Shown here: in pieces, positions 1,552-1,914 of the stretch
How the letters are laid out: every line of letters starts with the position of its first letter
Position numbering within the stretch: position 1 is the stretch's first letter
Virus record (IMG/VR): IMGVR_UViG_3300011116_000209
Span: 1-37,139 of that record
Direction: 5' to 3' (one strand)
Source: a virus
DNA length: 37,139 nt
The notes under the pieces: generated by a model
Seen by the model: only the letters and a program-made list of their open reading frames with translations
What the model was told of the DNA's origin: nothing
Databases searched by the model: none
Translations under genes and position numbers: made by a program

Positions 1552-1914
1552 AACCGTGGTATCCTAGCGTTGTCGGAAGTGACGAACCGGCACGTTGGGA
1601 ATAGGAAAGAACCTCTAAGTGAGGCTTGTTTGCACGCACCTATTCCCCGTGCTGGCCTGTCAAGCCCAAGTCTCACTTAGGGGTTTTTTTGTTTCCGACA
1701 GCTACCTAGTCGTCGGCGAAAGACGGCAGGGCTAGGCGGCGATAGGGATACTGTGGGCAGCGTTGGAATATCCTAACCTGGCGGCGAAGTCAGCACCAGA
1801 ACGCGAAAAGGCTGACGAGTCCTGTGGCTCCGAAAGTGCAGGTAAAGGCGGGCGAGGCTAAGGCTAAGTCCGTCCACCAAAAGTGCAGATATATATACAT
1901 AGTAAGGGAGGATT
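1552..1914 (+). ncRNA. Structured non-coding leader/attenuator RNA with interlocked helices
   Basis: This 363-bp gap has no convincing ORF but dense pairing. Helix A pairs 1587-1594 plus 1597-1605 with 1639-1655 (17 bp, a TT bulge and one G-U). Helix B pairs CCUCUAAGUGAGGCUUG (1612-1628) with 1667-1683 and runs into seven U. The order A5'-B5'-A3'-B3' is that of a pseudoknot. An outer helix pairs TGTCGGAA (1571-1578) with TTCCGACA (1693-1700). Downstream, 1705-1709/1732-1736 encloses 1711-1714/1722-1725, 1746-1750 pairs with 1769-1773, and 1776-1780/1839-1843 closes a three-way junction with hairpins 1789-1794/1811-1816 and 1817-1830. It resembles no RNA family I know. It probably regulates the operon beginning at 1915. 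Confidence 0.6.
1612..1690 (+). terminator. Intrinsic terminator formed by helix B of the leader RNA
   Basis: A 17-bp helix (1612-1628 with 1667-1683, two G-U pairs) is followed directly by TTTTTTT (1684-1690). The loop is unusually long (38 nt) and contains the 3' arm of the competing helix A. Formation of A before B is transcribed could hinder or delay the terminator, so this looks like a conditional terminator between gene 1243-1551 and the main rightward operon. Confidence 0.75.

Follow-up and report, generated by a model that had tools for sequence, protein, structure and literature searches.

Introduction

In classical attenuators, the antiterminator normally has an arm in common with the terminator, and the usual explanation of how attenuators work is a strand that has to pick one of two partners. 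Such attenuators, like leaders of the T-box and pyr type, have two mutually exclusive folds, a terminator and an antiterminator (PMC7430163), and in the preQ1 riboswitch an intrinsic terminator is controlled by an RNA of the pseudoknot type (PMC11625349). In the satellite phage P4, termination results when CI RNA pairs with two stretches of its own leader, seqA and seqC; pairing within the same untranslated early transcript controls termination ahead of the replication genes (PMC4825925). IsrK in prophage Gifsy-1 has a single promoter and start, from which both a small terminated RNA and a messenger produced by readthrough are made (PMC4825925), and put of HK022, a structured RNA, opens an early phage transcript and is tied to terminator readthrough (PMC9378689).

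Here we analyzed positions 1 to 37,139 of the virus record IMGVR_UViG_3300011116_000209 in IMG/VR, a stretch of 37,139 nt that is referred to as the window. It carries an early leader that may resemble the above systems in the respects just named, and in which two long helices, A and B, cross over a span of ~130 nt, with B running directly into a U-run. Compared with P4 immunity, the leader has no Rfam match, its helices cross without common strands, and no integrase was found in the 18 records searched. The short form of IsrK switches the long one at translation, whereas the switch proposed here is one of termination, again with no Rfam match. Unlike the two folds of a classical attenuator, A and B occupy disjoint bases and have no common arm, so their exclusion, if any, would come from order. 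While put has two stem-loops in about 70 nt and no terminator of its own, the present element has neither that size nor that shape; and while preQ1 is a small ligand-bound pseudoknot with a loop that is part of the antiterminator, both crossed helices here exceed a helical turn in the large leader classes. The known RNA RF02932 adjoins the element and follows most of the leaders studied, but it is a separate RNA and its model does not cover the element.

Results

Layout of the element in the window

The features of the locus, all on the + strand, are the following.

1538–1565, +: promoter-like TTGAAC-N16-TATCCT, which shares bases with the end of the ORF upstream (from sequence and conservation)
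1571–1578, +: 5′ arm of the outer helix, close to where the transcript is inferred to start; 8/8 pairs with 1693–1700, paired in class I relatives
1580–1605 (1580–1584, 1587–1594, 1597–1605), +: helix A, 5′ arm; 22 standard pairs, permutation tests; inner part hypervariable among relatives
1612–1628, +: helix B (terminator stem), 5′ arm; 17/17 pairs, near-invariant within classes II, III and S
1632–1652 (1632–1636/1648–1652), +: alternative hairpin E; predicted fold and arms in relatives
1639–1662 (1639–1655, 1658–1662), +: helix A, 3′ arm; pair check and permutation tests
1667–1683, +: helix B (terminator stem), 3′ arm; pair check, 17/17
1684–1690, +: U7 tract, intrinsic-terminator-like; U-run kept in all classes
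1693–1700, +: outer helix, 3′ arm, in readthrough RNA only; 8/8 in the pair check
1702–1820, +: Rfam RF02932 (Betaproteobacteria-1 RNA); 79.9 bits against a gathering threshold of 49.4
1915–2289, +: opening ORF of the operon that follows, with a match in neither Pfam nor PHROG

All claimed pairs of A, B and the outer helix were standard in a pair-by-pair check of 1571–1700. The core of A joins 1587–1594 to 1648–1655 and 1597–1605 to 1639–1647 in 17 standard pairs with a 2-nt bulge at 1595–1596, and five further pairs (1580–1584/1658–1662) extend it. The arms of B reach 23 nt with an A/U extension, and the base of the stem, CCUC/GGGG, is directly followed by U7, as in the sequence of an intrinsic terminator. 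The original prediction, made from the sequence alone, was thereby borne out in its geometry: its coordinates for A and B and the U7 held (17 standard pairs in A, 17/17 in B), the order A5′-B5′-A3′-B3′ was confirmed on the window sequence, its loop lengths of 6, 10 and 11 nt were correct, and its outer helix (1571–1578/1693–1700) pairs at 8/8 positions. Since the outer helix uses bases past the U-run, it is confined to readthrough RNA in the window.

The promoter-like sequence, TTGAACTTAAYTRAAWCYGTGGTATC, was found in 40 viral stretches, where it precedes the same kinds of leader. No promoter was listed for the region by a consensus scan, because the two hexamers match only 8/12 consensus bases; the promoter-like call rests on conservation and on the perfect TATAAT of a compact family of leaders (see below). 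A5′ starts 14 nt past the −10-like TATCCT in the window, and a −10-like hexamer lies 10–20 nt ahead of A5′ in most leader clusters, so that the RNA would begin approximately with the element and, with B active as a terminator, also end with it. Upstream, two overlapping open frames on the + strand, 1215–1541 and 1243–1551, lie in DNA common to the relatives. Judging from the sequence, the frame 1243–1551 is more likely to be the real upstream gene than 1215–1541; it resembles a small nuclease by eye and has no Pfam or PHROG match.

RF02932 and the downstream operon

An Rfam search of 1500–1960 with E up to 10 returned only RF02932 and a chance mir-240 match far below the cut-off; that no Rfam family covers 1552–1700 agrees with the original prediction, which named no RNA family with this layout. 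RF02932 lies just 3′ of the outer helix, outside the interlocked element. Its transcription probably depends on readthrough, given that it begins 18 nt past the start of the U-run. In 25/33 leader clusters, no more than about 25 nt separate the U-run from RF02932, and this gap is so short that it leaves no space for a separate promoter outside the element. At many other loci, no such terminator was found and RF02932 directly follows another gene. The RF02932 core pattern occurs in at least 119 viral stretches and 18 genome contigs, the named organisms among the latter being all Betaproteobacteria. No paper on RF02932 was found in the literature searched.

Several further observations concern this RNA. 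The isolated Acidovorax phage AP1 (OM049504.1) carries an unannotated RF02932-like RNA between a primase gene and the next CDS (L205:4001–4098), and RF02932 also follows a toprim/primase-like gene, as read from the DNA, in contigs such as L081, L083, L181 and L185. Within 1702–1895 of the window, two similar 15-nt repeats, CCGAAAGTGCAGGTA (1830–1844) and CCAAAAGTGCAGATA (1877–1891), come after RF02932, which suggests that the RF02932 domain may be longer than its Rfam model.

Downstream on the + strand follow the ORF 1915–2289, a replication-initiation-like ORF, NinB, a methyltransferase and a RecE-like exonuclease. The original prediction had placed the element at the entry of the main recombination operon; given these genes, that is correct only in part, and the Sak annealing gene is located elsewhere, to the left on the − strand. 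Neither a tyrosine nor a serine integrase, as expected of a temperate element with P4-type immunity, was found in 18 records, and no HTH_3 repressor matched above the cut-off; these records may be fragments. Classical lysogenic immunity, lacking an integrase or repressor match, is unlikely and was set aside.

Leader classes and covariation of helix A

As a BLAST search with the region found no match among isolated phages or plasmids, relatives were drawn from IMG/VR: 30 loci were reached via the upstream ORF (frame 1215–1541) and the 40 viral stretches via the promoter-like sequence after that ORF. Nearly all relatives are metagenomic, and their hosts are inferred from RF02932 alone. Behind the promoter-like sequence, at least three large leader classes, I (with the window), II and III, are mutually unrelated in sequence, and all show the order A5′-B5′-A3′-B3′-U. 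Further unrelated leaders upstream of RF02932 repeat the layout, including the compact family with an A of ~7–9 bp and a B of 21 bp. In classes I–III, A has 19–38 bp and B 21–25 bp, and the B stem comprises 19–26 pairs in the 33 leader clusters. From class to class, the sequences of B and of the outer helix change while their pairing is kept, the outer helix being clear in classes I–III only. Members of a class share ancestry and sequence counts therefore overstate the independent events; the recurrence of the layout in unrelated sequences is unaffected by this. Judged from these comparisons, the element is a widespread architecture in dozens of related phages, not a one-off. The original prediction had missed the adjacent RF02932, and its view of a single case was too narrow.

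In class I, the inner part of A came out misaligned by MAFFT, and covariation in this class was tested by permutation of partners instead of by that alignment. Among leaders with a common B, the cognate duplex of A5′ with the loop was more stable than duplexes with permuted partners in class I (−30.9 vs −22.2 kcal/mol, p=5e-5), and the same was found in class II (−31.3 vs −28.9 kcal/mol, p=1e-3), class III (−42.7 vs −31.4 kcal/mol, p=5e-5) and the compact family (−13.6 vs −10.6 kcal/mol, p=2.5e-4); class V gave p=0.04, and classes IV and VI were too small. In the compact alignment, 98.9% of A cells are paired, and both-side changes occur in 4/7 A pairs vs 0/21 B pairs. The covariation score of the compact A was reached in 0/500 shuffles, a count that is not a probability as the leaders are related, and it was lost when the partners were slid. 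The covariation check that had been proposed for the element was accordingly positive for A in four classes, by permutation tests and by the compact alignment.

Perfect helices of at least 7 bp ending no more than 5 nt from B3′ were present in 14/32 leader clusters, which had been picked by their position upstream of RF02932 and not by the presence of A, vs 7/413 control stems, namely other long stems with U-runs in the same DNA (p=4e-13). Shuffling of A in single sequences, which is underpowered for helices of 7–9 bp, gave p<0.05 in 14/36 and 9/32 clusters in two runs vs 7/119 controls. The B arms have an average identity of 0.96–1.00 in classes II, III and S, compared with 0.57 (II), 0.54 (III) and 0.60 (S) for the inner half of A, and class I has the same trend (B 0.83 vs inner A 0.58). 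On the sequences compared, the terminator is nearly fixed while the crossing helix varies with its pairing kept.

Some relatives depart from this layout. L020 and L021 have the promoter-like sequence, followed by a leader with nested helices and with neither a U-run terminator nor the crossed element; these leaders lead into a different ORF, of replication type by reading of the sequence. In other stretches (L005, L008, L012, L016, L022; L030, L036; L039; L042; L049), other RNA-like blocks replace RF02932 after the U-run. Leader class and downstream block appear to combine freely, as if they were swapped as modules at the outer helix.

Folding energies

The minimum free energy (MFE) of 1552–1710 lies 5 s.d. 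below that of dinucleotide shuffles. The folding model is pseudoknot-free and scores A and B separately, not together. For RNA starting at 1571, A was the MFE fold at every nascent end point tested from 1655 to 1683, and B was preferred only from 1690, at the U-run (−47.9 vs −44.8 kcal/mol for A). With the end at 1700, the B state has −59.0 vs −54.1 kcal/mol for A plus the outer helix, the latter two forming a single nested structure in the best A-state fold, where the outer helix continues directly into A. By this calculation, A is predicted to form before B. From the geometry, A may then hinder B: B5′ would lie inside the loop that A closes, and the polymerase would keep hold of the 3′ end. 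A partial B of about 8–10 bp, under one turn, might form despite A, which could make the exclusion incomplete. A averages −13.6 and B about −33 kcal/mol in the compact family; with A so much weaker, B may win there.

Hairpin E has arms in relatives such as GCACG/CGTGC, CATCG/CGATG and GCACT/AGTGC, which were read from the sequences, a fixed-register counter having failed on several rows. The predicted fold gives modest support to the idea that E would display the variable 3′ arm of A in its loop when B is formed.

Discussion

We consider, with a probability of roughly 0.68, that the rightward early transcript begins with a conditional intrinsic terminator, that is, an attenuator. Both helices, their crossing order, the covariation of A, the energy-based order of folding and the place of the element relative to the promoter-like sequence and RF02932 were all computed. 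The competition of A and B at a conditional terminator, as originally proposed, is supported in that A is the MFE fold from 1655 to 1683, B takes over only at 1690, and A covaries. A role at the DNA level, as a replication origin, was set aside: the strand-specific U-run, the promoter-like sequence and the G-U pairs favour RNA.

We infer that the crossed helices exclude each other topologically and that readthrough is regulated, and the switch might work as follows. The nascent RNA would pair helix A first, and A would enclose B5′ in its own loop. B3′, with the 3′ end held by RNA polymerase, could not easily wind round B5′, and the terminator would be delayed or weakened. The polymerase would then read through, the outer helix would tie the 5′ end to bases past the U-run, continuing A, and RF02932 and the early operon would be transcribed. 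If A were blocked or late, B would form at the U-run and an RNA of ~120 nt would be released. The original prediction had also offered a riboswitch or the target of a phage antiterminator; the results point to neither a ligand nor a protein, and the hypervariable A argues against sequence recognition by either, so that a ligand or a sequence-specific protein reading A is unlikely. The deciding factor may instead be RNA pairing or an effect that does not depend on sequence, such as polymerase speed or pausing. Nothing matching a topological pair of terminator and antiterminator was found in the literature searched, and the switch, which would work like an attenuator, is apparently undescribed and without an Rfam family match.

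Among the other explanations, a ligand-sensing riboswitch is hardly to be expected: the leader is structured and its terminator is like an expression platform, but no Rfam riboswitch matched at E up to 10, the classes have no aptamer-like core in common, and A is hypervariable. Antitermination in the manner of put, with the A-state RNA bound by RNA polymerase or by a protein of the host or the phage, and the polymerase then ignoring B and later terminators, deserves little credence. The site just past an early promoter is that of HK022 putL, and put acts in cis on intrinsic terminators (PMC9378689), but its two stem-loops in about 70 nt contrast with crossed helices and a hypervariable A; RF02932 could have such a role, yet it lies downstream of B. 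The locus could also be a plain small-RNA gene, in which A and B coexist as a pseudoknot, the RNA acts elsewhere or resists nucleases, and the downstream RNA is unregulated readthrough. Promoter-like sequence, element and terminator indeed make a complete unit, and the short A of the compact family (7 bp) may coexist with B. We nevertheless regard this as improbable, since the outer helix of classes I–III draws on bases past the U-run, RF02932 is too near for a promoter of its own outside the element, and an A of 19–38 bp in these classes is hard to combine with a B of 21–25 bp.

Somewhat better placed, and still tentative, is self-recognition, whereby the terminated leader, with B formed and the A arms exposed, would act in trans: by pairing with the A arms of nascent transcripts from phages of its own type, it would block A in cis and promote termination, giving negative feedback on the early genes or excluding phages that have the same A. 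In the very leaders (II, III, S) in which B is 0.96–1.00 identical, the inner half of A reaches an identity of only 0.54–0.60, its pairing is preserved despite the variation, hairpin E presents the variable part of A3′ in a loop, and P4 CI RNA, which brings about termination by pairing within its own leader, is a precedent (PMC4825925). On the other hand, a second copy of the A arms was sought in the window and not found, the 18 records with no integrase and no HTH_3 match above the cut-off make classical lysogenic immunity unlikely, and hypervariability can equally be drift under a pairing constraint. A more speculative extension, which we think rather unlikely, is that exclusion by topology alone frees the antiterminator in this class of phage leaders to become an identity tag, in which case the terminated leader would shut the early genes of phages with the same tag, as an RNA-only analogue of plasmid incompatibility in apparently lytic phages.

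The conditional terminator favoured here places RF02932 in a genomic context. If confirmed, it would represent a distinct principle of RNA switches, with helices on different strands that are linked by order alone and recur in many unrelated sequences, and it would explain how the control helix varies freely beside a fixed terminator. It would also provide an RNA decision point ahead of the early genes in many phages of Betaproteobacteria-type hosts.
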